A DNA stretch of 40,005 nt from a virus, in IMG/VR virus record IMGVR_UViG_3300031261_000032, positions 1 to 40,005 of that record. One strand, 5' to 3'. The notes under the pieces were generated by a model, which did not search any database, was not told the origin of the DNA, and saw only the letters and a program-made list of their open reading frames with translations. The translations under genes and the position numbers were made by a program. Of this stretch, positions 8,758-39,520 are shown in pieces. Every line of letters starts with the position of its first letter. The stretch's first letter is position 1.

Positions 8758-9030
8758 ATGATTGCTGATATTTATGCTTTTTCTAGAGATGGATTTAGAC
8801 ATGATACTTTTCAAAATTTTTTAAACGGTGATTTTCATGGTGTGTTTCAGTTTGACCGGTCTACTATACCACCATATAATCTGTTTAAAGTATCAATCAA
8901 TTTAGATGATTATGATATAAGTTGTGGACCTGGTGTTGTATATAATCATACTGTCTTACATTTTAGAAAGAAAACTATAAACTCCAGACCTGCAGAAAGT
9001 GGTGAACGGAGGCTTGAACCTTATTTATGA
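8758..9030 (+). CDS. Small tagged protein, unknown fold
   Basis: This 90-residue protein follows tRNA-Glu by nine bases. The body is beta-rich, with alternating hydrophobics in FKVSINLDDYDISCG, and has no known motif. It ends GERRLEPYL, the first instance of the shared C-terminal tag. The stop codon overlaps the next start (ATGA), so translation is probably coupled. Confidence 0.7.
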   Translation: MIADIYAFSRDGFRHDTFQNFLNGDFHGVFQFDRSTIPPYNLFKVSINLDDYDISCGPGVVYNHTVLHFRKKTINSRPAESGERRLEPYL

Positions 9031-9296
9031 ATGAATATATAGTAGGAGATGAAGTTTCTGTAACTCTTAATTCTGGTAATCGAGTTAAAGCAAAGATTAT
9101 AAGTATTGATAATGACGAGCTTGCACTAAAGTTTGTAGAGTATACAGAGCTTGTAAACATTGATGCAAGCGGTGGTTCAAGCGGTGGTTCAGGCGGTTGG
9201 CCTACTATTCATAGACACATAAATGAGGTAATCTCTTTAGTATCTAAAACTAGAAAAGAAAATCCTTTTGATAGGAAACTGGAGTTTGATTTATGA
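9027..9296 (+). CDS. Tagged SH3-like small barrel protein with GGS linker
   Basis: This 89-residue protein opens MNEYIVGDEVSVTLNSGN, then VKAKIISIDNDELALKFV, a five-strand pattern typical of SH3/KOW/Tudor-like barrels (GDxV start). A natural linker SGGSSGGSGG near residues 49-59 precedes a short segment and the tag DRKLEFDL. Its N-terminus closely resembles those of the genes at 30665, 32131, 32382 and 33797. It overlaps both neighbours by four bases. Confidence 0.75.
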   Translation: MNEYIVGDEVSVTLNSGNRVKAKIISIDNDELALKFVEYTELVNIDASGGSSGGSGGWPTIHRHINEVISLVSKTRKENPFDRKLEFDL

Positions 9297-9760
9297 AAAT
9301 AACAAAAATAGCTAATAGATGGTATGACGAAAACAATAATAGTTGGTCTACAGAAGAACTAGCTACTCTATACTCACCTACCCTAACTAATTGTAGATGG
9401 TGTAGAGATTGTAGAGATTGTAATTATTGTTGTCTTTGTAGTGATTGTAGTAATTGTAGTAATTGTAGTGGTTGTAGTGGTTGTAGTGGTTGTAGTAATT
9501 GTTATAATTGTAATTGGTGTAGTAGTTGTGGTAGTTGTAATAGTTGTTATAAATGTACTGATTGTAATGATTGTAGAGGTTGTAGTAATTGTAGTAGTTG
9601 TTATAGTTGTAGTTATTGTGGTAATTGTAAAGATTGTTTTCACTGCTATTTATGTAAAATTTGTAGTAACCTTAGATTTTATGAAAAAGGATCACAATTA
9701 AATACTATTATAAGAGTGGAGGCTAATGCTTTTGACAGAAAATTAGAAATAGACTTATGA
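9293..9760 (+). CDS. (Cys-x-x)n repeat protein, about 30 repeats
   Basis: This 155-residue member of the family has 12 copies in this window. The head MKITKIANRWYDENNNSW (residues 1-18) and an S-x-E-E-x-A-T-x-Y-S-P-T-L segment lead into roughly 30 consecutive Cys-x-x triplets (about residues 34-124), mostly C-S-N, C-S-G, C-R-D. A short spacer and the tag FDRKLEIDL end the protein. Almost every Cys is TGT, so the DNA is a near-perfect TGTAGTAAT-type 9-base pattern. Such Cys density suggests metal binding, Fe-S or disulfide-laddered solenoid structure. No characterised family is recognised. Confidence 0.85.
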   Translation: MKITKIANRWYDENNNSWSTEELATLYSPTLTNCRWCRDCRDCNYCCLCSDCSNCSNCSGCSGCSGCSNCYNCNWCSSCGSCNSCYKCTDCNDCRGCSNCSSCYSCSYCGNCKDCFHCYLCKICSNLRFYEKGSQLNTIIRVEANAFDRKLEIDL

Positions 9761-10062
9761 AAAAAGACACACTTGTAACATTAACCAAATTAAAACCCCT
9801 TGAAAATCCAGAGTATCCAACTCCAAATAAAGCAGACTACAGACCAGGACAATTTAATGGAAATGTAAGTTTACCAATAGATTATACAGCTACTGGAATC
9901 TTATTAAAAGATATTGAGGTTGGAGAGCCTATTCTTATGTTCAGACATATTAGAAATGGGATTAAAACTCCTGGTCATTTTTCTTCTAGCCGAGTCTCTA
10001 AAATAGAAGGTAATTTGTTATACACTAATAACAGTATTTATAAAATTGAAATATTAACTTAA
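9757..10062 (+). CDS. Small untagged protein, unknown
   Basis: This 101-residue protein overlaps the Cys-repeat gene by ATGA. The first third is Pro/Lys-rich, then GILLKDIEVGEPILMF and a beta-rich tail, which could be another small barrel. It ends IYKIEILT and so lacks the shared tag, an exception in this run of genes. Confidence 0.65.
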   Translation: MKKDTLVTLTKLKPLENPEYPTPNKADYRPGQFNGNVSLPIDYTATGILLKDIEVGEPILMFRHIRNGIKTPGHFSSSRVSKIEGNLLYTNNSIYKIEILT

Positions 10063-10067
10063 ACTAT

Positions 10068-10490
10068 ATGGAACAACTATATAAAAAGACAAAAAAGAAC
10101 GGTAAGACTAAATATGCTAAGGTAAATTTAAAAGACTTGGCTGATAATTTACTAGTTGATAGAATGACTCTAAGCCCAGGTCTTTGGCTGGTTAAAGAAG
10201 TTCCTAATTGTAAGTCATTAAGTTCAGTTTCTAAAGTATCTAGAATACCGGATTACCCCTACGATTTTACTAGTATAATCATGAATCGTGACGAACTGGC
10301 CGATTTCCTCGTCAAATTTAACAATGATTATTCTAAAAAACATCCTAGCTCAGGGAATGGATGGCAAATATTTCCGAGTTATTCCGAACTAGCTGAGGCT
10401 ATTTTAAATGAATTGATTAGACTGGCTGGCCTAGGATTTGGTGAAAAGCGAGAAGTACCTGTAACTAGAAAATTAGATTTAGAGTTATAA
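10068..10490 (+). CDS. Tagged protein, paralogue of the 10492 gene
   Basis: This 140-residue protein and the next gene share a central pattern: G-x-(W/Y)-L-V-K-x-(V/L)-P-N followed by S-K-x-x-(R/K)-x-P-D. A C-terminal helical region precedes the tag VTRKLDLEL. No enzymatic motif is visible. It is separated from its paralogue by a single base, so the pair probably arose by tandem duplication. Confidence 0.7.
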   Translation: MEQLYKKTKKNGKTKYAKVNLKDLADNLLVDRMTLSPGLWLVKEVPNCKSLSSVSKVSRIPDYPYDFTSIIMNRDELADFLVKFNNDYSKKHPSSGNGWQIFPSYSELAEAILNELIRLAGLGFGEKREVPVTRKLDLEL

Positions 10491-10491
10491 T

Positions 10492-10932
10492 ATGGCAGAC
10501 CTATACTATAAAGTTGGAAAAAGATATAGAGTAGCTTTATCTGATGTAAGTGAAGGAGCTATGACAACATTTTTATCAGAAGATGGAATAAGACCTACCT
10601 TTCTAACTATAGGAAATTTGGAGGCAGGTATATATTTGGTAAAACCACTACCTAATACTACTTTAGTGAGCATAATCTCTAAACTAGCTAAATATCCGGA
10701 TAAACCTGAATTACTGGCTCAAATAAAAGTTACCCAGTCTGAAATGGAATATTTTATTGCTGAGTATAGAAGAACTAGGATTACTAGAATAGGAACTGAT
10801 ACATTAAGTAATCAAGAAATAGCCAAGGTTATTTTTGATTATCTTATAGCTAAATCTGGTATTAAATTTTCGGAGAAGCCGGTTGAAAAAGTTGAACATA
10901 TAGTAGAACGAAAACTAGAACTGGATTTATAA
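10492..10932 (+). CDS. Tagged protein, paralogue of the 10068 gene
   Basis: This 146-residue protein resembles its upstream neighbour (GIYLVKPLPNTT versus GLWLVKEVPNCK) and keeps a similar length. It ends VERKLELDL. tRNA-Ala begins two bases after its stop codon. Confidence 0.7.
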   Translation: MADLYYKVGKRYRVALSDVSEGAMTTFLSEDGIRPTFLTIGNLEAGIYLVKPLPNTTLVSIISKLAKYPDKPELLAQIKVTQSEMEYFIAEYRRTRITRIGTDTLSNQEIAKVIFDYLIAKSGIKFSEKPVEKVEHIVERKLELDL

Positions 10933-10933
10933 C

Positions 10934-11005
10934 GGGGCTATAGTGATAATAGTAGCACGGAAGTTTTGCAAACTTCAGGACACAGAGCGTAACTGTGTAG
11001 TTCCA
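10934..11005 (+). tRNA. tRNA-Ala(TGC)
   Basis: Acceptor GGGGCTA/TAGTTCC (two G-U pairs), anticodon stem GAAGT/ACTTC with loop TTTGCAA, T-stem CACAG/CTGTG. The T-loop is AGCGTAA, with none of the canonical TTC, and the D-loop lacks GG. No CCA is encoded. Confidence 0.8.
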
Positions 11006-11009
11006 ATCC

Positions 11010-11083
11010 GGTCTGGAAGCATTAAAGTGATGCAGAGAACTCTTAATTCTCAGAATAGGGAGCGTTACCCTAGCAGACCACCA
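11010..11083 (+). tRNA. tRNA-Lys(CTT)
   Basis: Acceptor GGTCTG/CAGACC, D-stem GCAT/ATGC, anticodon stem GAGAA/TTCTC with loop CTCTTAA (anticodon CTT), T-stem TAGGG/CCCTA with unusual loop AGCGTTA, encoded ACCA. Confidence 0.85.
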
Positions 11084-11359
11084 ATTAAAACGAATGATCA
11101 AATTGAACATGTAGAACTTATTACTATACCTCTGCCTATAGTACTAGAAATAGTAAAGGAGTATATAGAAGCTAAATATAATCTAACTGGTGGAGAAATA
11201 TTTTTAAGAAAACAAAAAGGACCAACACCTGCTACAGGATATATGAAACTAAATGAGCCTGAATTGTATGATTTAAAATATAGAACTGTTGCAACACAAG
11301 CTGATATACATAAAGATTTATCAGAATTGCTGGAAAGAAAGTTAGAAATTGATTTGTAA
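11084..11359 (+). pseudogene. 5'-truncated tagged ORF downstream of tRNA-Lys
   Basis: The frame is open back through both tRNAs to 10943, but it has no ATG between the tRNA-Lys 3' end and a Met (YMKLNEPE) well inside the frame. The only candidates near the tRNA end are ATT codons at 11084 and 11102. The encoded stretch is protein-like, with amphipathic helices in IPLPIVLEIVKEYIEAKY, and keeps the tag LERKLEIDL. The most economical reading is that insertion of the tRNA pair removed the 5' end of a tagged gene. Use of a non-standard start is the alternative. Confidence 0.55.
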
Positions 11360-12948: not shown

Positions 12949-13473
12949 ATGACAATAACTAAAAGAGACGATAGATGGTATGATGAACGAGGTAATAGTT
13001 GGAGAACAGAAGAATCAGCTACTACATACTCACTTACCCTAATTAATTGTAGAGATTGTAGTAATTGTAATAATTGTATAGGTTGTAGTAGTTGTAGTAG
13101 TTGTAGTGGTTGTAATAGTTGTAGTGGTTGTAGTACTTGTTATAATTGTAGTGGTTGTAGTGCTTGTAATATTTTTAATTATTGTCATGATTGCAGTAGT
13201 TGTTTTAATTGTTATAGTTGTACTGATTGTAGTAATTGTAGTGATTGTAATTATTGTAGTCGTTGTAGTGATTGTAGTAGTTGCAGTAATTGTATTGATT
13301 GTAATATTTGTAGTGATTGTAGTTATTGTAGTAGTTGTAGTAGTTGTACTAACTGTAATCATTGTGAATTGTGTGGAAAATTAGTTGATCAAAAGTTTCA
13401 AGAAAAGATTAAAGACCCATTAATTAGGACAGAGTTTAATGTAGAAAACAGGTTACTAGAACCAGACTTATAA
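12949..13473 (+). CDS. (Cys-x-x)n repeat protein, about 36 repeats
   Basis: This 174-residue member starts ten bases after tRNA-Asp with head MTITKRDDRWYDERGNSW. About 36 triplets follow. One repeat has Phe in place of Cys (F-N-Y). The repeat ends C-E-L-C, then a helical spacer and the tag ENRLLEPDL. The head is nearly identical to that of the 16155 gene, but the C-terminal spacer is different, so the copies are mosaics. Confidence 0.85.
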   Translation: MTITKRDDRWYDERGNSWRTEESATTYSLTLINCRDCSNCNNCIGCSSCSSCSGCNSCSGCSTCYNCSGCSACNIFNYCHDCSSCFNCYSCTDCSNCSDCNYCSRCSDCSSCSNCIDCNICSDCSYCSSCSSCTNCNHCELCGKLVDQKFQEKIKDPLIRTEFNVENRLLEPDL

Positions 13474-16154: not shown

Positions 16155-16562
16155 ATGACAATAACTAAAAGAGACGATAGATGGTATGATGAACGAGGTA
16201 ATAGCTGGGATACTGAAGAAGCAGCTACTTTATACTCACCTACCCTAACCGATTGTACTAATTGTTATAATTGTTATAGTTGTACTAATTGTAGTCATTG
16301 TAGTAGTAGTTGTATTAATTGTAAAGATTGTAGTAGTTGTAGAGATTGTTATAATTGTAGTAATTGTAGTAGTTGTAGAGATTGTTATTATTGTAGTAAT
16401 TGTATTAATTGTAATAGTTGTAGAAGATGTAGTCGTTGTGATAGCTGTAGTGATTGTAGTGAGTGTATTGGTTGTAATGACTGGACTAATAATAAGAAAT
16501 ATGAACCAGTAATTAGACCATTTATAGATTGTAGAGATAGACTATTAGACCCTTATTTATGA
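16155..16562 (+). CDS. (Cys-x-x)n repeat protein, about 24 repeats
   Basis: This 135-residue member has head MTITKRDDRWYDERGNSW and about 24 triplets with one extra Ser that breaks the phase (C-S-S-S-C), then C-I-G-C-N-D-W. The post-repeat segment TNNKKYEPVIRPFIDC is shared with the 28232, 29178 and 31338 copies. The tag is RDRLLDPYL. It overlaps the next gene by ATGA. Confidence 0.85.
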   Translation: MTITKRDDRWYDERGNSWDTEEAATLYSPTLTDCTNCYNCYSCTNCSHCSSSCINCKDCSSCRDCYNCSNCSSCRDCYYCSNCINCNSCRRCSRCDSCSDCSECIGCNDWTNNKKYEPVIRPFIDCRDRLLDPYL

Positions 16563-18318: not shown

Positions 18319-18392
18319 ACACACGTAATTTAATAGTAGAATATTTGCCTGATTAGCGAATTGTACTTGTGCAACTCAAGTCGTGTGTACCA
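18319..18392 (+). tRNA. tRNA-Ile(GAT)
   Basis: Acceptor ACACACG/CGTGTGT, anticodon stem TTTGC/GCGAA with loop CTGATTA, T-stem ACTTG/CAAGT with loop TGCAACT. The D-loop AATAGTA lacks GG. Encoded ACCA. Confidence 0.87.
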
Positions 18393-20189: not shown

Positions 20190-20501
20190 ATGCCTACAAA
20201 AATACAAGATTGTAAAGGTTTATCTGTTTGTATTAATAATCATGTCTTCAAATCTAATGAGGTTAGATTAATACCATTTAGTGCTGCTGAAAAAGAATGT
20301 AAATGTGTTCTTTATACTGATAGTGACTATGTTATAAAAAGACGAGAGCCAGTAGATCTAGAATTTCCTGGATTTTTATTAGCTTGTCCAGTCTGTAATG
20401 TTATTCAGATAGACGGTTTTAGAAATGCCCCTACTAATTCAACACCAATAAAAGGTGTTGATAATACAATACCTGAGAGGAGATTAGAAATAGATTTATG
20501 A
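20190..20501 (+). CDS. Tagged Cys-containing protein, unknown
   Basis: This 103-residue protein has scattered Cys residues (DCKGLSVC, CKC, and CPVC near residue 70) that may bind zinc. It ends PERRLEIDL, the shared tag. It starts six bases after tRNA-Val and overlaps the next gene by ATGA. Confidence 0.7.
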   Translation: MPTKIQDCKGLSVCINNHVFKSNEVRLIPFSAAEKECKCVLYTDSDYVIKRREPVDLEFPGFLLACPVCNVIQIDGFRNAPTNSTPIKGVDNTIPERRLEIDL

Positions 20502-21420: not shown

Positions 21421-21873
21421 ATGAAGATAACAAAACGAGAAGATAGATGGTATGACGAAAACGGTAATAGTTGGTCTACAGAAGAACTAGCTACTAGATA
21501 CTCTCCTACTCTAACCAATTGTAGTAATTGTAATAATTGTAATTATTGTAGAGATTGTAGTTATTGTAGTAGTTGTATTTATTCTAATGGTTGTAGTAGT
21601 TGTAGTGAGTGTAATGGTTGTAGGAATTCTCTTAATTGTATTAGTTGTAATTGGTGTAGTAGTTGTGGTAGTTGTAATAGTTGTATTAGTTGTAGTGTTT
21701 GTAGTCTTTGTAGAGATTGTACTTATTGTAGTAATTGTAATAATTGTAGAAAATGTGAAAATTGTTATTTCGTTAGTAGTCTTGAAAATTACGCCCCACT
21801 TCTTAAATTTGAACCATCTTCAACTAGACCAGAATTAGATATTAATGATAGAAAACTAGAACCAGACTTATGA
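21421..21873 (+). CDS. (Cys-x-x)n repeat protein, about 27 repeats
   Basis: This 150-residue member has head MKITKREDRWYDENGNSW and about 27 triplets, two of which have Ser instead of Cys. The segment from C-R-K-C-E-N-C to the end (positions 21750-21873) is almost base-for-base identical to that of the 24139 copy. The tag is NDRKLEPDL. It overlaps the next gene by ATGA. Confidence 0.85.
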   Translation: MKITKREDRWYDENGNSWSTEELATRYSPTLTNCSNCNNCNYCRDCSYCSSCIYSNGCSSCSECNGCRNSLNCISCNWCSSCGSCNSCISCSVCSLCRDCTYCSNCNNCRKCENCYFVSSLENYAPLLKFEPSSTRPELDINDRKLEPDL

Positions 21874-23689: not shown

Positions 23690-24142
23690 ATGAAACGACC
23701 TACAAGAAAAGCAACATTAGAAGATTCAGTAACGTATATTCTAGCAGAGATTAAAGAATTAGAAGCTTGTCAATATCTGCTTACGCAGATCATTTATAAA
23801 CTTACTAATGATTATGCACCGGATGATACTCTTTCTGATAGTGTAGCTAAGATAACTGAAAGAATAACTCGTAAAAAGTGCAGGCTGTTTGAACAATTAG
23901 CCACAATTTCTGTTCTTAGCCCAACTGCTGAAGCTAAGTTAAAACAAAGATTAATCGATAAATTAAATAAATCTGGTTCATATTTCAGCAATTTTGTTAA
24001 TCAATCTTGGACTGATATCTCTACCAACCCTGAAGAATTAAAGCAAACTATAAAAGATCAGATGAGTAAAGCATTACAAGTAAGAGAGGATGAGGTAGAT
24101 ATGATAGCAGTACCTAAAAGGAAGTTAGAACCAGATCTATGA
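23690..24142 (+). CDS. Tagged helical protein, 150 residues
   Basis: Mainly helical, with KATLEDSVTYILAEIKELEA and several amphipathic helices. A repeated AAAACCATA leader lies just upstream, typical of the A-rich starts here. No enzymatic motif. It ends PKRKLEPDL and overlaps the Cys-repeat gene by ATGA. Confidence 0.7.
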   Translation: MKRPTRKATLEDSVTYILAEIKELEACQYLLTQIIYKLTNDYAPDDTLSDSVAKITERITRKKCRLFEQLATISVLSPTAEAKLKQRLIDKLNKSGSYFSNFVNQSWTDISTNPEELKQTIKDQMSKALQVREDEVDMIAVPKRKLEPDL

Positions 24143-24594
24143 AGATAACTAAACGAGAAAATGATAGATGGTATGACGAAAACAATAATAGTTGGGAAAC
24201 TAAAAAATTAGCTACTTTACACTCACCTACCCTAACTAATTGTAGTTGGTGTGGTGGTTGTAGAGATTGTAGAGATTGTAGAGATTGTAGAGATTGTAGA
24301 GATTGTAGTAATTGTAGTGATTGTAGTAATTGTAGTTGGTGTGGTGGTTGTAGTTATTGTATTTGTTGTAATCAGTGTATAAGTTGTAGTTATTGTAGTG
24401 GTTGTAGTAATTGTAGTTATTGTAGTCATTGTAATAATTGTAGTGATTGTGGTTATTGTCATTATTGTAGAAAATGTGAAAATTGTTATCTCGTTAGTAG
24501 TCTTGAAAATTACGCCCCACTTCTTAAATTTGAACCATCTTCAACTAGACCAGAATTAGATATTAATGATAGAAAACTAGAACCAGATCTATGA
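24139..24594 (+). CDS. (Cys-x-x)n repeat protein, about 27 repeats
   Basis: This 151-residue member has head MKITKRENDRWYDENNNSW. Its repeat contains five consecutive identical C-R-D triplets encoded by five exact copies of TGTAGAGAT (24259-24303), a sign of recent slippage. The C-terminal spacer matches the 21421 copy. The tag is NDRKLEPDL. It is directly followed by another family member. Confidence 0.85.
   Translation: MKITKRENDRWYDENNNSWETKKLATLHSPTLTNCSWCGGCRDCRDCRDCRDCRDCSNCSDCSNCSWCGGCSYCICCNQCISCSYCSGCSNCSYCSHCNNCSDCGYCHYCRKCENCYLVSSLENYAPLLKFEPSSTRPELDINDRKLEPDL
24259..24303 (+). repeat. Five exact tandem copies of a 9-base unit
   Basis: The unit TGTAGAGAT (Cys-Arg-Asp) occurs five times without a base change, inside a longer, less exact 9-base periodic tract. 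Confidence 0.95.
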
Positions 24595-24965
24595 AGATAA
24601 CTAAACGAGAAAATGATAGATGGTATGACGAAAACAATAATAGCTGGGATAGTGAAGAACTAGCTACTTTCTATTCACCTACCCTAACTACTTGTAGTTA
24701 TTGTAGTGGTTGTAGTTATTGTAGTAATTGTAGTAGTTGTAGAGATTGTAGTTATTGTAATCTTTGTAATGATTGTACTCGTTGTACTAATTGTGATTAT
24801 TGTGATAATTGTAGTCATTGTGGTTATTGTAGTGATTGTAGTGATTGTTTAGGTTTATATAATTATCGAGATAAAGAAAATTTAGAACCTCAAGTAAGAA
24901 TATTACCTCCAACATCAAGAATAGAATTAGATATTAATGATAGGAAATTAGAACCAGACTTATGA
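24591..24965 (+). CDS. (Cys-x-x)n repeat protein, about 17 repeats
   Basis: This 124-residue member, tandem to the 24139 gene, shares its head (MKITKRENDRWYDENNNSW) but has only about 17 triplets and a different spacer (LGLYNYRDKENLEPQVRI) before the tag NDRKLEPDL. It overlaps the next gene by ATGA. Confidence 0.85.
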   Translation: MKITKRENDRWYDENNNSWDSEELATFYSPTLTTCSYCSGCSYCSNCSSCRDCSYCNLCNDCTRCTNCDYCDNCSHCGYCSDCSDCLGLYNYRDKENLEPQVRILPPTSRIELDINDRKLEPDL

Positions 24966-28202: not shown

Positions 28203-28235
28203 TTTAATAATCGAAGACTAGACCCTTTCTTATGA
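28203..28235 (+). pseudogene. Orphan C-terminal tag relic
   Basis: Between the 27476 gene and the next Cys-repeat gene, a stretch preceded by an in-frame stop reads F-N-N-R-R-L-D-P-F-L-stop. That is the shared tag with no gene attached, and its TGA overlaps the next ATG. It looks like the 3' remnant of a lost tagged gene. Confidence 0.75.
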
Positions 28236-28639
28236 CAATAACAAAAATAGCTAATAGATGGTATGACGAAAACAATAATAGCTGGTTATCAGAAGAAGCA
28301 GCTACTCAATACTCACTTACCCTAACTAATTGTAGTAGGTGTAGTGATTGTAGTAATTGTATTGATTGTAGAGATTGTAGTAATTGGTGTAGTAATTGTA
28401 ATAATTGTAGAGATTGTAGTTATTGTATATATTGTAGTGATTGTAGTTATTGTATATATTGTATTGATTGTAATATTTGTAGTGATTGTAGTAGTTGTAT
28501 TAATTGTAGTAATTGTAGTGATTGTAGAGATTGTAGTAGTTGTATTGATTGTAGTGATTGTACTAATAATAAGAAGTATGAACCAGTAACTAGACCATTT
28601 ATAGACTGTACTAACAGACTATTAGAACCAGATTTATGA
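28232..28639 (+). CDS. (Cys-x-x)n repeat protein, about 25 repeats
   Basis: This 135-residue member has head MTITKIANRWYDENNNSW (as in the 9293 gene) and about 25 triplets with one inserted Trp (C-S-N-W-C) that shifts the register. The spacer TNNKKYEPVTRPFIDC and tag TNRLLEPDL match the 29178 copy. It overlaps the next gene by ATGA. Confidence 0.85.
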   Translation: MTITKIANRWYDENNNSWLSEEAATQYSLTLTNCSRCSDCSNCIDCRDCSNWCSNCNNCRDCSYCIYCSDCSYCIYCIDCNICSDCSSCINCSNCSDCRDCSSCIDCSDCTNNKKYEPVTRPFIDCTNRLLEPDL

Positions 28640-29153: not shown

Positions 29154-29181
29154 TGATAGAAAGTTGGAACCAGACTTATGA
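29146..29181 (+). pseudogene. Orphan C-terminal tag relic (D-I-N-D-R-K-L-E-P-D-L)
   Basis: In the +1 frame relative to the preceding gene, the bases read D-I-N-D-R-K-L-E-P-D-L-stop, identical to the ends of the 21421, 24139 and 24591 genes. An in-frame stop lies just upstream, so no gene is attached. Ribosomal +1 slippage near the end of the 28881 gene could in principle add this tag. Confidence 0.75.
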
Positions 29182-29609
29182 CAATAACAAAAAGAGCTGA
29201 TAGATGGTATGACGAAAACGGTAATAGTTGGATAACTGAAGAACTAGCTACTACTGACTCTCCTACCCTAACTAATTGTTATAATTGTAGAGGTTGTAGT
29301 AATTGTAGAGATTGTAGTTATTGTATATATTGTAGTGATTGTAGTAATTGTATTAGTTGTATTAGTTGTAGTGATTGTAGTAATTGTAGTAATTGTTATA
29401 GTTGTATTGATTGTAGTAATTGTAGTGATTGTTATAGTTGTAGAGATTGTAGTAGTTGTATTGATTGTAGTAGTTGTAGTGGTTGTAGAGATTGTAGTAA
29501 TTGTAATAATTGTATTTATTGTAGTGATTGTACTAATAATAAGAAGTATGAACCAGTAACTAGACCATTTATAGACTGTACTAACAGACTATTAGAACCA
29601 GATTTATGA
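29178..29609 (+). CDS. (Cys-x-x)n repeat protein, about 28 repeats
   Basis: This 143-residue member has head MTITKRADRWYDENGNSW and about 28 triplets without interruption, rich in C-I-D, C-S-D and C-S-N. The spacer and tag TNRLLEPDL are the same as in the 28232 copy. It overlaps the ATP-grasp gene by ATGA. Confidence 0.85.
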   Translation: MTITKRADRWYDENGNSWITEELATTDSPTLTNCYNCRGCSNCRDCSYCIYCSDCSNCISCISCSDCSNCSNCYSCIDCSNCSDCYSCRDCSSCIDCSSCSGCRDCSNCNNCIYCSDCTNNKKYEPVTRPFIDCTNRLLEPDL

Positions 29610-30451
29610 AAGCACATTGGATCATAGAAAATTTTACAGATTCGGAGGATTACAGGGATTTAATTAAAGCAGTAAAAGATTTAGGCAAGGAATGCTTTGT
29701 AATAGATAAACGTAATCATTTTGATTTTAATCCTGCCTCATTTGTGGAAAATGAATGTGTAATAGTTCAAGGGTCAATTCAAATGGTTAAGAATATAGAA
29801 TCTAGGTTACCTAAAAATTGCTTTCCCATCAAATATTGCACCTTCAACAATTATCTTTGCTCGGTTTACTATCCTAAATTAAAAGACTTCCTATTTAATG
29901 ATAAGTATGTATTACTTCCGCTAAAAGAACTTAAAGAGAATAAGTTTGATTATTATCAGAAGTTTGGAAAAGAAGCACTTATATTTGTAAGACCGGATAG
30001 TGGAGAAAAGACATTTCAAGCCCAACTCTTAGATTTGCAGGATTTCGACAGATTTTGGACTAACTCTATAGCTTCCAGTACTTTAGATGATGATTTAGTA
30101 CTAGTTTCTACGCCTAAAGATATAATAGGTGAGTGGCGTTTTATATGTTCAAAGTATAACGATGGGGAAATCATAACTCAATCTACTTATCGATATCAAG
30201 GCAAGTTATGTTATATACCTGCTGCACCTGTTAAAGCAACTGAACTTTGTAAAAATATATTAAAGGTTCAATATTACCCAGACTCTGTTTTTTGCATAGA
30301 TATCTGCCAGGCTGGGGATAACAAGTTCTATTTATTAGAATTAACCTCCTTTTCTAGTGCTGGTCTATATGCTACCGATAAAAAGAAGATAGCAACTAGA
30401 GTAAGTGAAATAACCGAATTTGAATATGGAAGAGAAATATTCTATAGGTGA
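29606..30451 (+). CDS. ATP-grasp domain protein
   Basis: This 281-residue protein has the middle segment LIFVRPDSGEKTFQAQLLDL with GEWRFICSKYNDGEIITQST and a C-terminal FCIDICQAGDNKFYLLELTSFSSAGLY (broken across the core). This fits the ATP-binding and Mg-binding parts of ATP-grasp ligases of a type common in phages and bacteria. Such enzymes join carboxylates to amines. The substrate is unknown; peptide tagging is one possibility worth testing, given the tagged proteins around it. It overlaps the neighbours at both ends. Confidence 0.65.
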   Translation: MKAHWIIENFTDSEDYRDLIKAVKDLGKECFVIDKRNHFDFNPASFVENECVIVQGSIQMVKNIESRLPKNCFPIKYCTFNNYLCSVYYPKLKDFLFNDKYVLLPLKELKENKFDYYQKFGKEALIFVRPDSGEKTFQAQLLDLQDFDRFWTNSIASSTLDDDLVLVSTPKDIIGEWRFICSKYNDGEIITQSTYRYQGKLCYIPAAPVKATELCKNILKVQYYPDSVFCIDICQAGDNKFYLLELTSFSSAGLYATDKKKIATRVSEITEFEYGREIFYR

Positions 30452-30668
30452 TCTTGTTGAATTATTAAATTTAGGTGAAGGGGAGATCGTCTCTATAAAA
30501 AACACTTATTATCATATGAGAATGTTGAATCATGTATCTATTGGTAAACGTGATTTAGATCCGGGAGATATACTTAATGTGTGGCCTGACGAAATAGTAA
30601 AAAAGATAGTAATTCTAAGACCTGATTATAGTAACTTAGATGAAAGAAGAATTGATATTGAATTATGA
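30426..30668 (+). CDS. Tagged SH3-like small barrel protein
   Basis: About 80 residues from ATG 30426 (26-base overlap with the ATP-grasp gene). EKYSIGDLVELLNLGEGEIV begins the barrel, and a second half with DPGDILNVWPDEIV closes it. The tag is DERRIDIEL. ATGA overlap with the next gene. Confidence 0.7.
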   Translation: MEEKYSIGDLVELLNLGEGEIVSIKNTYYHMRMLNHVSIGKRDLDPGDILNVWPDEIVKKIVILRPDYSNLDERRIDIEL

Positions 30669-30913
30669 ATGATTATAAGGTAGGTGATGTGATTGAGGCT
30701 TTTTATGTAGCATCTATTTATTGTACAGGTAAAATAGTAGAATTTAAGTTTAAGGGAGTTCTCATACGTATACTAGAAGACATGAATTACAATGATATAA
30801 TATGTTATCCTAGTAATACACAGTTATTTCTCCCATTTGAAAATATCATAGGGTTTAGTCAACTTATTAGAACAGAAAACATATATGAACGAAACCTTGA
30901 CCCATATTTATAA
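30665..30913 (+). CDS. Tagged SH3-like small barrel protein
   Basis: This 82-residue protein opens MNDYKVGDVIEAFYVASIYC then TGKIVEFKFKGVLIRILE. The tag is YERNLDPYL. The DNA encoding the tag also encodes, in another frame, the first residues of the next gene. Confidence 0.72.
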   Translation: MNDYKVGDVIEAFYVASIYCTGKIVEFKFKGVLIRILEDMNYNDIICYPSNTQLFLPFENIIGFSQLIRTENIYERNLDPYL

Positions 30914-31151
30914 TATAGGTGATGAAGTTAGTGGGAATTATGCACAATTAGCTGAGTTTAAAGGATTTATAGTATCATATAAATTTTATTTCAATAAACC
31001 TTGGTATTATGTACAGCTAACTGAACGCATATTTATACACAAAGAATTACCTATAGGTTGGATCATAGCTGTTTCAGAGATGGAAATTAAGGAAGTTAAA
31101 AAATTAAGAAAAGAAAACATATATGAGCGAAACCTTGACCCATATTTATAA
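30885..31151 (+). CDS. Tagged SH3-like barrel protein with dual-coded start
   Basis: This 88-residue protein starts inside the preceding gene's tag: MNETLTHIYNIGDEVSG uses the same bases as E-R-N-L-D-P-Y-L plus stop. KGFIVSYKFYF continues the barrel. Its own end is again YERNLDPYL, which in turn overlaps the next start. There is no downstream ATG that preserves the GDEV motif, supporting this start. Confidence 0.72.
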   Translation: MNETLTHIYNIGDEVSGNYAQLAEFKGFIVSYKFYFNKPWYYVQLTERIFIHKELPIGWIIAVSEMEIKEVKKLRKENIYERNLDPYL

Positions 31152-31341
31152 TATAGGTGATGAGGTGGCATTTTATAGAGGTACTCATAGGTTTGAAGGT
31201 AGAATAATAAATAGCGCAGCATTTCATGATCATTGGTGTGTTCAATTATTGAACTCTAAATTTATGTCAGTACATAAACAATGTTGTAATAAAATTAGAA
31301 AAGAAAATCCTTTAGATAGGAAACTAGAGCTTGATTTATGA
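31123..31341 (+). CDS. Tagged SH3-like barrel protein with dual-coded start
   Basis: This 72-residue protein begins MSETLTHIYNIGDEVAFY, overlapping the upstream tag by 29 bases as in the previous gene. The body FEGRIINSAAFHDHWCVQLL completes a short barrel. It ends LDRKLELDL. ATGA overlap with the Cys-repeat gene. Confidence 0.7.
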   Translation: MSETLTHIYNIGDEVAFYRGTHRFEGRIINSAAFHDHWCVQLLNSKFMSVHKQCCNKIRKENPLDRKLELDL

Positions 31342-31895
31342 CAATAACTAAAAGAGATAATAGATGGTTTGACGAAAACAATAATAGCTGGGATAGTGAA
31401 GAAGAAGCTACTCTATACTCACCTACCCTAACCGATTGTACTAGTTGTTTTAATTGTTATAGTTGTATTGATTGTAGTAGTTGTATTGATTGTAGAGATT
31501 GTAGTAGTTGTATTGATTGTAGTAATTGTAGAGATTGTACTAGTTGTGATAGTTGTAGTGGTTGCATTGATTGTAGTGGTTGTGTTGATTGTAGAGATTG
31601 TAGTGGTTGTAGTGGTTGTATTTATTGTATATATTGTAGTGATTGTAGTGAGTGTTATGGATGTAGAGATTGTAGTAATTGTAGTAATTGTTATAGTTGT
31701 ATTGATTGTAGTAATTGTAGTGATTGTAGAGATTGTAATAATTGTAGAGATTGTAGTAGTTGTATTGATTGTAGAGATTGTAGTTATTGTAGTAGTTGTA
31801 TTGGTTGTAATGACTGGACTAATAACATGAAATATGAACCGGTAATTAGACCATTTATAGACTGTACTAACAGACTATTAGAACCAGACTTATGA
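31338..31895 (+). CDS. (Cys-x-x)n repeat protein, about 41 repeats (longest)
   Basis: This 185-residue member is the longest copy. Head MTITKRDNRWFDENNNSW (Phe replaces Tyr), then about 41 triplets with internal higher-order repeats such as C-R-D-C-S-S-C-I-D. Spacer TNNMKYEPVIRPFIDC and tag TNRLLEPDL. The long, imperfectly repeated tract suggests growth by duplication of several triplets at a time. Confidence 0.86.
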   Translation: MTITKRDNRWFDENNNSWDSEEEATLYSPTLTDCTSCFNCYSCIDCSSCIDCRDCSSCIDCSNCRDCTSCDSCSGCIDCSGCVDCRDCSGCSGCIYCIYCSDCSECYGCRDCSNCSNCYSCIDCSNCSDCRDCNNCRDCSSCIDCRDCSYCSSCIGCNDWTNNMKYEPVIRPFIDCTNRLLEPDL

Positions 31896-32134
31896 CACAA
31901 AAGGAATATAAAGTAGGAGATGTGGTTGATTTTGAGGTTAGTAATTTGAAAGGAATAGGAACTATAACACCATATAATGGAGACATAATGTATGCTGTAA
32001 TTATAGAGGAATTTCCCGGTATACCTAGTAGAACTAAATGGCATATATTTCCTGATGAAATAACAGGTATACATGTTGAACCTAGAATAGAATTTGACAT
32101 CACAAAAGATAGAAGATTAGAGTTAGAACTATGA
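31892..32134 (+). CDS. Tagged SH3-like small barrel protein
   Basis: This 80-residue protein opens MTQKEYKVGDVVDFEVSNLK, then GIGTITPYNGDIMYAVII and a final strand near WHIFPDEITGIHV. The tag is KDRRLELEL. Four-base overlaps at both ends. Confidence 0.72.
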   Translation: MTQKEYKVGDVVDFEVSNLKGIGTITPYNGDIMYAVIIEEFPGIPSRTKWHIFPDEITGIHVEPRIEFDITKDRRLELEL

Positions 32135-32385
32135 ATGAATTTGAAGAAGGAATGAAAGTTATAGTTACTTTTTATAGCGGTAATAAAGCTGTAGGAATAA
32201 TAATATGGTATGCTGATGATACTTCCTATGAAGTTGAAGTCTTGCATTATACAGAAATTAATGATAAAGAGAAAACGGTGGAGACATTTCCAAATCCTTA
32301 TAGTAACATTAACTTCATAAATACCGAAGCAATACCAAGTAGAACAGAGAATCCTTTTGATAGAAAATTGGAACCAGATCTATGA
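32131..32385 (+). CDS. Tagged SH3-like small barrel protein
   Basis: This 84-residue protein, MNEFEEGMKVIVTFYSGNKA then VGIIIWYADDTSYEVEVL, is closely similar in layout to the 9027 and 33797 genes. It ends NPFDRKLEPDL. Confidence 0.72.
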   Translation: MNEFEEGMKVIVTFYSGNKAVGIIIWYADDTSYEVEVLHYTEINDKEKTVETFPNPYSNINFINTEAIPSRTENPFDRKLEPDL

Positions 32386-32633
32386 GTGAATATAAAGTAG
32401 GAGATGTTGTAGTTTATTGGTCTATTAGTTCTAACTCAGAGGCAGTTGCTAAGATAGTCGAAACCGATTGGACTAGTTTTAATTATTTAAGGGTAATTAT
32501 AATAAAACATGATCATCTTAGTGCAGGTACATCAATTTATTTAACAGAGAGTGAAATAATAAGATTGGACGGTCCCATTATAAAACACTGTTTTGATATT
32601 ATGTTAGATAGAAGATTAGATTTGGAACTATAA
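32382..32633 (+). CDS. Tagged SH3-like small barrel protein, last of the run
   Basis: This 83-residue protein begins MSEYKVGDVVVYWSISSNSE, then AVAKIVETDW. It ends LDRRLDLEL with TAA. It is the last gene of a run of ATGA-linked genes (29178-32633), and a G-free C-rich tract follows. Confidence 0.72.
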   Translation: MSEYKVGDVVVYWSISSNSEAVAKIVETDWTSFNYLRVIIIKHDHLSAGTSIYLTESEIIRLDGPIIKHCFDIMLDRRLDLEL

Positions 32634-33476: not shown

Positions 33477-33800
33477 ATGACAATAACAAAAAGAGCTGAT
33501 AGATGGTATGACGAACGAGGTAATAGTTGGTTATCAGAAGAATTAGCTACTTTATACTCACCTACCTTAACTAATTGTAGTTATTGTGATGATTGTAGTA
33601 ATTGTAGAAATTGTAGTAGTTGTAGTAATTGTAGTAGTTGTAGAGATTGTATTAGTTGTTATGATTGTAACGATTGTAAATATGTCTGTTGCCTGACAGA
33701 CAGAACAAGATTTACTGCTCAATTCGAACCTGCTACAGAAGATACTATAATAAGACCTGAACTTGACATTAATAATAGAAGACTTGAAATTGAACTATGA
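33477..33800 (+). CDS. (Cys-x-x)n repeat protein, about 11 repeats (shortest)
   Basis: This 107-residue member has head MTITKRADRWYDERGNSW and about 11 triplets, then KYVCCLTDRTRFTAQFEP and the ending EDTIIRPELDINNRRLEIEL. The last 20 residues are identical to those of the 35117 copy. ATGA overlap with the next gene. Confidence 0.85.
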   Translation: MTITKRADRWYDERGNSWLSEELATLYSPTLTNCSYCDDCSNCRNCSSCSNCSSCRDCISCYDCNDCKYVCCLTDRTRFTAQFEPATEDTIIRPELDINNRRLEIEL

Positions 33801-34063
33801 ATGAATTTAATATAGGTGACATTATTTCTGTAACATTTACTTTTTCTGGTAATCAAGCTATTGGTGTTGTAATTGACGATGATAATTTTATGATCACGTC
33901 TTATACTAAAGTACTTAAACCAGACTATGTAGTTAAAGGTTTATCAGACCGTGAACCTCTTTATGGATGTAATATAAGGAATATTCAACTAGTATCACGG
34001 AGTATTAGACAAGAAGTTAGACAAGAAGACCCATTTTCCCGTAACCTAGACCCATATCTATGA
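33797..34063 (+). CDS. Tagged SH3-like small barrel protein
   Basis: This 88-residue protein opens MNEFNIGDIISVTFTFSGNQ then AIGVVIDDDNFMITSY, parallel to the 32131 gene. It ends FSRNLDPYL. ATGA overlap with the next gene. Confidence 0.72.
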   Translation: MNEFNIGDIISVTFTFSGNQAIGVVIDDDNFMITSYTKVLKPDYVVKGLSDREPLYGCNIRNIQLVSRSIRQEVRQEDPFSRNLDPYL

Positions 34064-34922: not shown

Positions 34923-35120
34923 ATGGCTCAATTAATAATAAAGAATATTACCATGAATCAAGCCAAAGTATTAGCTAGTTACTACCAAAGACAAGGGGAA
35001 CAACACGCTGAAGTATGGTTTGAAGACAGAAACGAAGAAACACCAATAGTAGATGTATCAAAATGTCCTTGGTTAATAGTAGATGAAAAAGAAGAAACTG
35101 TAACTATTATTTGTAAATGA
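34923..35120 (+). CDS. Small unknown protein, 65 residues
   Basis: Start 34923 is used because the longer frame begins inside tRNA-Leu. Alpha/beta pattern (AQLIIKNITMNQAKVLASYY, then VWFEDRNEE and strands). Overlaps the Cys-repeat gene by ATGA. No tag. Confidence 0.62.
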   Translation: MAQLIIKNITMNQAKVLASYYQRQGEQHAEVWFEDRNEETPIVDVSKCPWLIVDEKEETVTIICK

Positions 35121-35449
35121 AACTAACAAAACGAGAAAATGATAGATTCTATGATGAAAACAATAATAGTTGGATAACAGAACAACTAGCTACTGTATAT
35201 TCACCTACGCTGATTAATTGTAGATATTGTAGTGATTGTAGTAATTGTAGTAATTGTAGTAGTTGTATTAGTTGTTATATATGTGTTAATTGTAGTAATT
35301 GTAGTGAGTGTTATAGATGTAGAGATTGTATTAGTTTGTATAGACATTACAACGAAGAAAAATTAAAACCTCAGAAGTATGACACTGAAGATACTATAAT
35401 AAGACCTGAACTTGACATTAATAATAGAAGACTTGAAATTGAACTATGA
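35117..35449 (+). CDS. (Cys-x-x)n repeat protein, about 12 repeats
   Basis: This 110-residue member has head MKLTKRENDRFYDENNNSW (Phe for Trp in the usual RWYDE) and about 12 triplets, spacer SLYRHYNEEKLKPQKYD, then the ending shared with the 33477 copy and tag NNRRLEIEL. Overlaps the AAA+ gene by ATGA. Confidence 0.85.
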   Translation: MKLTKRENDRFYDENNNSWITEQLATVYSPTLINCRYCSDCSNCSNCSSCISCYICVNCSNCSECYRCRDCISLYRHYNEEKLKPQKYDTEDTIIRPELDINNRRLEIEL

Positions 35450-36530: not shown

Positions 36531-36998
36531 ATGAAACTAACAAAAAGATATAATAGATGGTATGACGAAAATTATAATAGTTGGGATACTGAAGAATCAG
36601 CTACTCAATACTCACCTACCCTAACTAATTGTAGTAGGTGTAGTGATTGTAGATATTGTAGTCTTTGTAATTATTGTAGTAATTGTAGTAATTGTAATGA
36701 TTGTATTACTTGTATTAATTGTAGTGATTGTACTCGTTGTATTAATTGTAGAGGTTGTATTTGTTGTAATCAGTGTATAAGTTGTAGTGATTGTAGTAAT
36801 TGTAGTAGGTGTACTAGTTGTAATCGTTGTAGCGGTTGTAGCGGTTGTAGTGATTGTACTCGTTGTATTGATTGTAGTTGGTGTAGTTTACTTATAGATA
36901 GAATAAGATTTTTCCCACAAACTGGCCCTGACAACTCGGAACTAATAACTAGAAAAGAAATAGCATTAACAGATCGAAATCTGGAACCATTTTTATGA
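36531..36998 (+). CDS. (Cys-x-x)n repeat protein, about 28 repeats
   Basis: This 155-residue member, nine bases after tRNA-Ser, has head MKLTKRYNRWYDENYNSW. About 28 triplets include C-I-C-C-N-Q-C, also seen in the 24139 copy. The spacer is unique and the tag is TDRNLEPFL. ATGA overlap with the next gene. Confidence 0.85.
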   Translation: MKLTKRYNRWYDENYNSWDTEESATQYSPTLTNCSRCSDCRYCSLCNYCSNCSNCNDCITCINCSDCTRCINCRGCICCNQCISCSDCSNCSRCTSCNRCSGCSGCSDCTRCIDCSWCSLLIDRIRFFPQTGPDNSELITRKEIALTDRNLEPFL

Positions 36999-37505: not shown

Positions 37506-37509
37506 CTTT

Positions 37510-37717: not shown

Positions 37718-37882
37718 ATGAAACCAGACAAAAAGAAGAAAGACCTTTTAATGCTACTATGCGTTATTGGTGGGATGAGCTTGTTTGCAGGCATGACACA
37801 TACCCCAATACTATTAGTAGCAATTCCGGTTTACCTTTATCTCTATCTAGACGACCTTGATAAAGATATCAATGAAGATTAA
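37718..37882 (+). CDS. Small membrane protein, 54 residues
   Basis: Lys-rich start (MKPDKKKKDLL), two hydrophobic segments (LMLLCVIGGMSLFAGM; PILLVAIPVYLYLYL) and an acidic tail. Third in the membrane micropeptide run; holin-like or superinfection-exclusion roles are possible but unsupported. Confidence 0.55.
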   Translation: MKPDKKKKDLLMLLCVIGGMSLFAGMTHTPILLVAIPVYLYLYLDDLDKDINED

Positions 37883-37888
37883 CACAAA

Positions 37889-38473
37889 ATGAACAATAAA
37901 CTAACTGTATTTTTAGACTTGGATGGCACTATTGTAGACTGGTTGGATAAGATGAGAAAAGAATGTAAATTACCAATCAGTGCATTTACTCAATTTTATG
38001 AGAATCCAGACTCTCTAACTGAGGAAGCAATTACTGAATTATTTGGAGGAGAAAATAAATTTCGCAAACTAATGTATAACAGAAGTGCTAAATTCTGGTA
38101 TACTCTTGATAGCTTTTGGTGGATGGAATATCTGATAGTCCAGTTAAAAAATAACTTTAATGAAGTTGCCTTCTTTACTAGCCCTGGAGATAACCCTGAA
38201 GCTGGGAAGGGTAAGATTTTATGGCAACAAAAGCATTATCCAGAGATTCCTCTTATTATGGGGAAACACAAGCATTTATGTGCTGGTCCTAATAAAGTAT
38301 TAATAGATGATAACTATAGGAAGATTGGTAGGTTTATTGAATATGGAGGTTATGGCATTCTTTGGCCTAATCAGTTTCATGTAGCTAAGTTTAATGCCGG
38401 TAGAACGTACTCACTTATTTCTGATATAGTAGCTGAAATTCTAGCTTACCAGAAATACCATACCTTGATTTAA
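37889..38473 (+). CDS. HAD-family 5'(3')-deoxyribonucleotidase-like
   Basis: This 194-residue protein has N-terminal FLDLDGTIVDW with Asp10 as nucleophile and Asp12 as acid/base, motif II FFTSPG, motif III lysine in MGKHKH, and motif IV LIDDN. This is the layout of NT5C-type nucleotidases that dephosphorylate (d)NMPs, matching a phage that controls nucleotide pools. Confidence 0.8.
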   Translation: MNNKLTVFLDLDGTIVDWLDKMRKECKLPISAFTQFYENPDSLTEEAITELFGGENKFRKLMYNRSAKFWYTLDSFWWMEYLIVQLKNNFNEVAFFTSPGDNPEAGKGKILWQQKHYPEIPLIMGKHKHLCAGPNKVLIDDNYRKIGRFIEYGGYGILWPNQFHVAKFNAGRTYSLISDIVAEILAYQKYHTLI

Positions 38474-38474
38474 T

Positions 38475-39146
38475 ATGTCTGACCTCATTTTTAGTCGTGA
38501 AGTGCTTAAGTTGAATAAAAATCATTTACCTATAGGATTCTTCACGCCTAAAGATGTATTTACAGCTTTGGCTAATTATATGGTTGATAGAAGACAGAAC
38601 TATATACTGGATGTTAAAGGTAATAAAATGCGCAAGATGCTGGCTTATGATATTACTTATGAACAGATAGATGATGACCTATACGACTTCTCCAAACTTC
38701 TTAATATGCGGGTAGTTGACTGGGATGAATGGATAACCTTGCCAGTAAGGAGTTATGATCTATTCGTACATACCCCTAACCTTGTAGTAAGAGTGCCTAG
38801 AGTAGTTGTAAGTCTGGCTTGTGAAGAAATGCCTAAAGTTCGATATAATACTAGCTTAAAATCTGTTTATAACCTGTATGAAGGTATTTGTCAGATAAGT
38901 AAGAAAAGATTAACAATGAAGGAGGCTAGTCGTGATCATGTAATACCTGTCTCTAAAGGTGGCGAAAATAAGCTAAATAACATCATCTTGGTCGATAGAT
39001 GTATTAATAGCAGAATGGGTAATAAGTATAAACATGAGTTAGGATTGCCAGAGATTAAACCTAAAACCCCTAAAACCATGCCGGTAAAAGATACATTAAG
39101 AAATATTAAAGGTGTTCCGGAATGGGAATACTGGTTAAAAAGATGA
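38475..39146 (+). CDS. HNH endonuclease
   Basis: This 223-residue protein has the C-terminal block CQISKKRLTMKEASRDHVIP, then SKGGENKLNNIILV and CINSRMGNK: the DH of the beta-beta-alpha metal motif, the conserved Asn, and a final C-x-N-S pattern. The N-terminal half is of unknown fold. Candidate homing endonuclease or defence/packaging nuclease. It overlaps the WGR gene by ATGA. Confidence 0.8.
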   Translation: MSDLIFSREVLKLNKNHLPIGFFTPKDVFTALANYMVDRRQNYILDVKGNKMRKMLAYDITYEQIDDDLYDFSKLLNMRVVDWDEWITLPVRSYDLFVHTPNLVVRVPRVVVSLACEEMPKVRYNTSLKSVYNLYEGICQISKKRLTMKEASRDHVIPVSKGGENKLNNIILVDRCINSRMGNKYKHELGLPEIKPKTPKTMPVKDTLRNIKGVPEWEYWLKR

Positions 39147-39520
39147 GTACTATATTAAAGAGTGAATATCTTTATAATGATAATGATAATCATGATAAAG
39201 TATATAATGTGACGCTAAAAGAAGTGGAAGGACAAATCACAACAGGTACAGTTATTGATTTTGTAGTTACTGCCGAATATGGTAGGAGAGGTTCGGTTTT
39301 AAAGACCATAACTAAATATGATGGCATTAGCTATGGTAAAGCTAAAGAAATTTATACATCTTTAATAGCAGAAAAAATAGCCAAAGGTTACAATAAAGGA
39401 CCTAAAAGAAAGAAGGTCAAATCCGAACCTGAATTGAAACCTAAACTGAAACCAAAGAAGTTGGAAACCCAGGAGCTAAACGATGTACCTTTTAGAAGAT
39501 TAGACTTTGGTGACTTATGA
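39143..39520 (+). CDS. WGR-domain protein with degenerate tag
   Basis: About 125 residues from ATG 39143 (ATGA overlap with the HNH gene). LKSEYLYNDNDNHDKVYNVT, then FVVTAEYGRRGSVL and a closing helix match the WGR domain (here YGRRG), known to bind DNA ends or nucleic acids. A Lys/Pro-rich linker leads to FRRLDFGDL, a possible divergent form of the shared tag with one extra residue. Confidence 0.75.
   Translation: MSTILKSEYLYNDNDNHDKVYNVTLKEVEGQITTGTVIDFVVTAEYGRRGSVLKTITKYDGISYGKAKEIYTSLIAEKIAKGYNKGPKRKKVKSEPELKPKLKPKKLETQELNDVPFRRLDFGDL

Follow-up and report, generated by a model that had tools for sequence, protein, structure and literature searches.

The stretch of DNA analysed here (the window) is a 40,005-base IMG/VR record, IMGVR_UViG_3300031261_000032, labelled G000 below, whose source is an uncultured, giant phage, and its subject is a short C-terminal peptide (the tail, or tag) with which many small genes on the plus strand end directly before the stop codon. 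A sequence-only reading of the window had listed 27 such genes; all 27 stops are indeed in place, and each of the 27 open reading frames (ORFs) ends in R-[KRNL]-[LI]-[DE]-[PILF]-[DEYF]-L. The same reading had stated that a few tails lack an acidic residue before the arginine, which is correct as far as it goes but understated, since D or E stands there in 18 of the 27 and N in 6. Twenty of the tagged stops overlap the following ATG (as ATGA), and the remaining seven are TAA.

Tagged genes and their bodies

The tagged proteins had been described as members of unrelated families. Several body types are present, but they do not amount to 27 families. Grouped by eye, the 27 bodies comprise 12 Cys-repeat proteins, nine small proteins that mostly start with G-D-x-V, one pair and four singletons. 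The Cys-repeat genes, all on the plus strand like the others, lie at 9293..9760 (tail DRKLEIDL), 12949..13473 (NRLLEPDL), 16155..16562 (DRLLDPYL), 21421..21873, 24139..24594 and 24591..24965 (DRKLEPDL in all three), 28232..28639, 29178..29609 and 31338..31895 (each NRLLEPDL), 33477..33800 and 35117..35449 (both NRRLEIEL) and 36531..36998 (DRNLEPFL). In these proteins, for example those at 9293-9760, 12949-13473 and 36531-36998, cysteines recur about every three residues along a stretch of some 100, and they share a conserved RWYDENxNSW start; 53 unique members were found among the loci analysed. The small G-D-x-V proteins are encoded at 9027..9296 (DRKLEFDL), 30420..30668 (ERRIDIEL), 30665..30913 and 30885..31151 (both ERNLDPYL), 31123..31341 (DRKLELDL), 31892..32134 (DRRLELEL), 32131..32385 (a protein of like type; DRKLEPDL), 32382..32633 (DRRLDLEL) and, in a G-D-x-V-like form, 33797..34063 (SRNLDPYL); BLAST fails to join all nine into one group. 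The pair consists of the gene at 10068..10490 (TRKLDLEL) and its paralogue at 10492..10932 (ERKLELDL), singleton bodies are encoded at 8758..9030 (ERRLEPYL), 10943..11359 (ERKLEIDL) and 23690..24142 (KRKLEPDL), and a further tagged gene lies at 20190..20501 (ERRLEIDL).

The species has 82 nonredundant tagged ORFs if strain copies are counted, and once their last 16 residues had been trimmed, BLAST sorted the bodies into 21 clusters. Known families are nearly absent from the ten proteins scanned: beyond phrog_15341 (function not assigned), matched by the Cys-repeat protein at 9293..9760 with E=3e-17, only sub-threshold Pfam or weak PHROGs matches were found. The SH3-like barrels suggested earlier are likewise unproven, as the two small proteins scanned returned only sub-threshold Pfam matches (e.g., PUA_4, E=0.002). 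Elsewhere in the species, a tagged protein of 166 amino acids (L030 18383-18883) sits between SbcD/Mre11-like and SbcC/Rad50-like genes, and it is the sole tagged protein for which an orthologue was found in the relative G006.

Occurrence of the tail within and beyond the window

The pattern R.[LIM][DE].[DEYF]L forms the C-terminus of 25 of the 92 gene calls in the window (the greedy gene caller missed two of the 27) and occurs at none of 11,574 internal positions, a difference that excludes a chance origin. The window is spanned by G001 at 99% identity and overlapped over about 14.6 kb by G002 (151 kb, 99.4% identical), which shares 91.8 kb at 100% with G007 (127 kb), where a second cluster of tagged genes is present. 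In G000, G002 and G007, taken together as one phage, the window's form of the tail ends 44 of 332 nonredundant gene calls and is found at 0 of 65,815 internal positions. G010 is part of G007, and close strains are G004 (97.3% identical to the window) and G012 (95.7% to G007). More distant relatives were recruited via the DNA polymerase (49-55% identical); several of their records are fragments, and G003 and G008 lie outside the set analysed. The search for the tag in the rest of the genome and in relatives that had been proposed was thus successful in G002 and G007 and in orthologues from G005 and G006, and the window-type pattern occurs in 0 of 19 distant-relative records.

Shortly upstream of the tail, an R-x-[ED] element is present in 54 of the 82 tagged ORFs, many of them paralogues or strain copies, compared with 18 of 4,250 background windows; it is found in 33 of 46 Cys-repeat ORFs and in 21 of the other 36. 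This excess suggests that the C-terminal signal may be bipartite, combining the tail with the upstream R-x-[ED].

With limits set, tblastn against a phage collection returned no match for the window gene at 5642-6502, a Cys-repeat protein, the 166-residue tagged protein, the G002 gene at 83178-84311 or the N-terminal piece of the G013 ATPase, and matches to RecA and AAA proteins in that collection were distant only. A scan of genome contigs with the phage polymerase gave one distant partial match, and no host was found. Fifteen tRNA genes are scattered among the tagged genes between positions 8674 and 37403 of the window, to which Rfam adds one at 18319-18389.

Selection on the tail peptide

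Three lines of evidence favour the proposal that selection acts on the peptide: codon spectra, retention of the tail in divergent orthologues, and a ratio of non-synonymous to synonymous polymorphism (pN/pS) in the tag that is close to zero. When tail residues shared by different families are compared, 0.468 of 1,152 codon pairs are identical, whereas codon usage would predict 0.406, and the excess lies mainly at position -3 and at the last leucine, where the ATGA overlap limits the choice of codon. In the G005 and G006 orthologues, the tail is kept at an overall identity of 27-53%. The ends in the window species and G005 read TRKLDLEL and PRRLDPDL for the gene at 10068..10490 (53% identical), ERRLEIDL and ERNLDTEL for that at 20190..20501 (34%) and KRKLEPDL and KRELSPDL for that at 23690..24142 (27%); a fourth set, across the species, G005 and G006, reads NRRLDMEL, ERRLDTDL and DRNLSFEL. 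Among untagged orthologues many ends diverge, yet some are conserved, for instance IKEEVRVIESRL and the end of the polymerase.

A comparison of the dN/dS type (rates of non-synonymous and synonymous change), also proposed earlier, was run on the close strain pairs G000/G004 and G007/G012 after dropping gene pairs below 75% identity or 85% coverage. In the tagged genes, the final seven codons carry 11 synonymous and 2 non-synonymous changes, the bodies 77 and 532 (Fisher p=1.6e-8). With genes matched less strictly, at the risk of mixing paralogues, the counts for three record pairs, two of which are not independent, were 9/0, 12/5 and 8/2 in the tag and 77/513, 69/442 and 49/370 in the bodies. 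If the Cys-repeat proteins are excluded, the tag shows only one difference (p=0.19), and this subset alone is not significant. Values of pN/pS were 1.06 and 2.91 for bodies without Cys repeats (few changes), 1.18 and 1.65 for Cys-repeat bodies, where repeat slippage can inflate the ratio, and 0.44 and 0.21 for untagged genes, whose own last seven codons hold one synonymous and seven non-synonymous changes. The tag is therefore near-invariant while the bodies change, indicating that the payloads vary fast or freely and the tail stays.

The tail in an AAA+ module

The tail reaches further than the sequence-only reading had proposed: it belongs to an AAA+ module beyond the window, and its spelling is specific to each phage group. 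A like tail, R-x-[LIV]-x-hydrophobic, stands at or near the C-terminus of an AAA ATPase, a DUF3150 protein and a WGR-like protein in 14 lineages, most of them without a swarm of tagged small proteins, and the three genes are clustered in 12 far records. In G002, the DUF3150 protein (PF11348, E=2.2e-10; 40.7 against a cut-off of 24.9 bits) ends in GEYTRRLDFDEL and is neighboured by a split AAA ATPase, a DUF1257-like protein (below cut-off) and a DUF2997 protein. In other relatives, DUF3150 was assigned by homology to a hidden Markov model (HMM). Far DUF3150 ends read RKLSV, RKLEV, RKLEI, RKLSI, RNLDV, RAIKL, RRIQV and RKFNV, with RKLA and RKLTVK as odd ones, and a tyrosine and the arginine of this tail are invariant in all 17 aligned proteins. 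The ATPase tail, near the C-terminus, has an invariant R and K in 11 of 11 aligned sequences. The G002 ATPase piece matches PF00004 (E=1.3e-30) and AAA_lid_3 (36.7 against 27.2 bits), which places it in the classic AAA clade, and the best PDB matches of the ATPase profile are CDC48-like chains; we take the ATPase to resemble Ycf46, and the gene set of the module to resemble Ycf46's chloroplast neighbours. The ATPase gene is in two pieces in G002, G019, G022, G026 and G027. In G002 the break falls near Walker A, with about 290 bases between the pieces (112642-112934), in which Rfam found no intron match and one sub-threshold match to a snoRNA family that we take as chance.

The third member of the module is present in the window itself. 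The gene at 39122..39520 (plus strand; PADLOC WGR_XIII, E=9.6e-14) had been regarded as carrying a degenerate copy of the tag; instead, it encodes a WGR-like core member of the module, and its tail FRRLDFGDL is near the TRRLDFDEL of its own DUF3150 protein (G001, G002). In G001, some 61 kb separate this gene from the module. We call the protein WGR-like because it does not reach the Pfam cut-off for WGR (PF05406; 17.6 against 22 bits, E 0.0044); the G031 protein scores 19.6 bits, and four other relatives scanned gave no match. To keep the tail out of the family assignment, the last 12 residues of every protein were cut before a WGR HMM was built and searched. Seeded with five far proteins, four of which had first been noticed by their tails, this HMM returned 17 rows at E<0.02, all 17 ending in R-x-[LIM]-x, of which the 12 non-seeds from 8 lineages make up the fair test. 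The window gene was recovered among these non-seeds at E=6.9e-4, and a second round added G026 (E=0.0027), again with the tail. Across 10 aligned WGR-like proteins, the bodies are 13-27% identical to that of the window protein, and few positions are conserved, the R and L of the tail among them.

AlphaFold2 models of the module proteins place low confidence on the tails. In the DUF3150 model (17-sequence alignment; mean predicted local distance difference test score, pLDDT, of 76; predicted template modelling score, pTM, of 0.47), residues 323-328 are below a pLDDT of 50, as are residues 496-527 of the ATPase (11-sequence alignment; mean pLDDT 73, pTM 0.52). Such low values in the models would suit a free end. 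A fold search with the DUF3150 model against solved structures returned no match at E<=0.001.

Group-specific spelling of the tail

The relatives fall into five groups with five tail dialects. The window species uses R-[KRNL]-L-[DE]-x-[DEY]-L; G005 uses R-[RNE]-[LM]-[DS]-[TP]-[DES]-[LI]; G006 uses R-[NK]-[LIV]-[STD]-[LF]-x-L, on six ORFs including four in tandem; G031 uses R-[AK]-I-[KR]-[IL], carried by its DUF3150 and WGR-like proteins and by three small ones, its ATPase having RKIKA; and the far clade uses R-K-L-x-[VIL]. The matrix of dialects against groups is nearly diagonal, with 44, 7, 5, 6 and 22 C-termini in the own group and 0 or 1 off the diagonal. Pooling the far records with G006 gives 45 C-termini, out of 3,031, that conform to R.[LIVF].[VILFAM], where 10 are expected; the pool includes G017 and G029, neither of which has a DUF3150, AAA or WGR match. 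As DUF3150 and WGR-like proteins supply 28 of these 45, the swarm in the far clade is small at most.

Within genomes, the tails of the DUF3150 and WGR-like proteins resemble each other: over 14 lineages, defined by the tail-stripped HMM, a permutation test reached its lowest attainable value, p=1e-5, and over 10 lineages of the far clade it gave p=1.3e-4. An earlier permutation over 13 lineages, partly picked by regular expression, gave p from 1e-5 to 3e-4. The pair test omits G005, a fragment without DUF3150 or WGR, and G006, G022 and G025, in which no WGR-like protein was found. At the third residue after the arginine, the acidic or non-acidic character is concordant between the DUF3150 and WGR-like proteins in 14 of 14 cases.

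A docking motif as the proposed explanation

The tail is a short conserved motif that follows a variable linker, is carried by module proteins as well as by unrelated small proteins, and is spelled differently in each group. For these reasons, we favour reading it as a short linear motif for C-terminal docking to a putative shared partner in the AAA+ module, which about 44 small, fast-evolving proteins of the window species would have co-opted, and we give this reading a probability of roughly 55%. One putative partner, in or near the module, would hold a groove for the tail, in which the alternating hydrophobic residues of L-x-I-x-L suggest that the peptide might add a beta strand. The ATPase, the DUF3150 protein and the WGR-like protein, as core subunits, would bind this groove in order to assemble, and the small tagged proteins would be adaptors or clients that plug into the same site while their bodies diversify, so that variable domains could be brought to the ATPase, perhaps against changing host targets. 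It is tempting to go further and speculate about a phage adaptor system in which one AAA+ machine with an open docking site receives dozens of diversifying small plugs through a private C-terminal code. We put this forward tentatively and would not bet on it; it would amount to a single unfolding or remodelling engine aimed at many changing host targets, with the code of each phage group fitting its own machine only.

Several points weigh against the docking reading. The partner within the module is putative, as is the complex of tail and partner. The low pLDDT of the tails may reflect shallow alignments, and two core segments of the ATPase score equally low. Most far ATPase tails run beyond the motif by a few residues (MRKLSIAIGNEE), and that of the window species, RALDPFN, is without the K and the final Leu. 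Tails were anchored on the arginine by eye, and fitting the dialect expressions to the groups makes the diagonal partly circular; the near-empty off-diagonal was not built in. The polymerase tree leaves three independent contrasts between DUF3150 and WGR-like tails, all concordant (sign test p=0.25), and shared descent may therefore make up part of the covariation signal. Three of the 53 unique Cys-repeat proteins (L055 1134-1529 and 7415-7948; L107 2444-2977) are without a tag, one ending in a hydrophobic, membrane-like stretch and two in Lys-rich, helix-like ends. Finally, four cultured phages with a related AAA protein do not clearly share the tail.

The earlier reading had offered hub docking, packaging and clamp binding as candidate roles, of which the first fits best and the other two are disfavoured on the evidence below. 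Among the alternatives, the one that survives best is that the tail docks outside the module, at a host hub or at a membrane or scaffold site to which the AAA, DUF3150 and WGR-like proteins would go as well. The dialects could then mirror differences between hosts, and a hydrophobic or Lys-rich helix in place of the tail on Cys-repeat proteins would suit a role in localisation. We nevertheless consider this rather unlikely, as far relatives with few or no other tagged proteins share the tail on three proteins of one cluster, which points to the module.

A virion packaging signal appears improbable. The internal proteins of phage T4 carry a constant terminal capsid-targeting signal, which is N-terminal and is removed in the head, and the present layout resembles theirs in that many variable small proteins bear one constant terminal signal; the tail, however, is C-terminal. 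None of the 80 genes assigned to the putatively structural parts of G002 carries it, and it occurs on an ATPase and on the protein between the SbcD-like and SbcC-like genes. The count of 0/80 weighs less against packaging than it seems, because these regions were defined by position and PHROGs marks just two of 10 proteins scanned as structural, one tail-sheath-like and one weakly tail-fibre-like; of the others, one is a DNA ligase, one resembles RNA polymerase and six match nothing in PHROGs. This raised our estimate for packaging slightly, at the cost of docking elsewhere and of a DNA footprint. The DNA ligase (phrog_114, E=3.5e-21; L026 18571-19968) and the RNA polymerase beta-subunit-like protein (phrog_3015, E=2.3e-15; L027 10819-13155, equal to G002 50816-53155) share a region with the tail-sheath-like gene. 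Several proteins from these putative structural regions moreover carry a different motif, which is N-terminal. This motif, [FY][IV]xGF[IV]KxA (e.g., AFINGFIKAA and AYINGFVKRA), is found in 5, 4, 4 and 5 genes of G002, G013, G019 and G030, occurs past residue 45 in the same records 0, 2, 1 and 2 times, and is present in none of the 107 genes of G006; in G002 the genes that carry it are located by positions 40117, 46914, 60426, 64781 and 76701 (L025-L032). It is possibly a head-sorting signal.

About equally improbable is docking to a protease, in which the tails would insert into a peptidase ring in the HbYX/GQYL manner or label proteins for degradation. In its favour, the present system likewise includes an AAA ATPase, and Mpa and Bpa offer a precedent for a shared docking tail (PMC4254994). 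On the other side, a search of 15 records, several of which are fragments, turned up neither a proteasome/HslV-type nor a ClpP gene, although a ring supplied by the host might still serve; 11 of 14 control genomes were positive in the 20S/HslV-type search. The tail also departs from HbYX in that Tyr stands at position -2 in only 10 of 82 tags and Asp or Glu in 66.

Very unlikely, in our view, is a sliding-clamp binding motif. Clamp-binding motifs are short hydrophobic peptides, often terminal, and K-L-E-I-D-L is similar to the hexapeptide Q-L-x-L-x-L; one tagged protein also lies within a cluster of recombination genes. Yet none of the 82 tags has Q where the hexapeptide does, K, R, L or N standing there instead; 41 of them carry a proline at the second hydrophobic site; and the DNA polymerases are without the tail, ending in CWNWK in G002, CWEWKKE in G005 and CWNWK in G006. 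Weakest of all, and hardly credible, is a footprint at the DNA level (recombination, a gene-end cassette that spreads, or a signal that couples translation to that of the following gene), for although the overlap of 20 of 27 stops with an ATG and the plain duplication of the Cys-repeat genes would suit it, codon identity between families is near the codon-usage expectation, pN/pS in the tag is near 0, tags also precede non-overlapping TAA stops, and orthologues at 27-53% identity retain the peptide.

Precedents and implications

We also compared the tail, read as a docking motif, with known systems of sorting and docking. Small heat-shock proteins end in an I-x-I/V tail that forms a beta-strand tail, and the present tail, being R-x-I-x-I-like, recalls it; however, no HSP20 gene was found in 22 phage records, the only records searched, whereas 13 of 14 controls gave a match (12 above cut-off), and we set this candidate aside. 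Among cultured phages, Pseudomonas phage vB_PaeS_FBPa45 has a related ATPase (29% identity) with a DUF1257 gene about 1.6 kb further on, but a shared tail was not seen. Two other cultured phages were considered. A DUF3150-like protein (23.9% identity, E=1e-4) is encoded by Tunturiibacter phage Tunturi_3 together with an ATPase, but their tails, DRKFHLEGEEF and GRIIR, are not clearly shared. The gp97 ATPase of Mycobacterium phage Catdawg (L246 5821-7599), a relative of the ATPase studied here, ends in VRVLDL, which is similar to the tail, but only 1 of 103 gene calls fits R.[LIVF][DE]-hydrophobic, which is no excess, and we regard it as no more than a lead.

The closest likeness is to the mycobacterial proteins Mpa and Bpa, which have a common GQYL end, are otherwise without homology and dock on one ring (PMC4254994). 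As here, an AAA ATPase and a protein unrelated to it in sequence share C-terminal residues and one docking partner. The present motif is a different one, no proteasome gene was found in 15 records, the bearers number dozens and not two, and the spelling is group-specific. By analogy, Mpa and Bpa can serve as a working precedent of which the tail system is not itself a member. Every established system for docking or sorting against which the tail was tested differs from it in some defining respect. The literature searched, mostly without subscription papers, made no mention of DUF3150 or of an AAA ATPase together with DUF1257, and searches for Ycf46 and phage, for WGR, AAA and phage, and for shared phage C-terminal motifs gave nothing relevant among the matches listed. 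The principle of a C-terminal docking motif common to unrelated proteins is not without precedent, but that literature offered none for the phage system, for its scale or for its dialects.

If the docking reading is true, it would describe a new viral way of organising dozens of accessory proteins, by a genome-wide attachment code that links them to one ATP-driven machine. It would also provide a handle on the roles of DUF3150, DUF1257, DUF2997 and the phage WGR-like proteins, and the tails allow unrelated, uncharacterised small proteins to be grouped. Should the partner be found, the dialects would offer pairs of peptide and groove with differing specificity.

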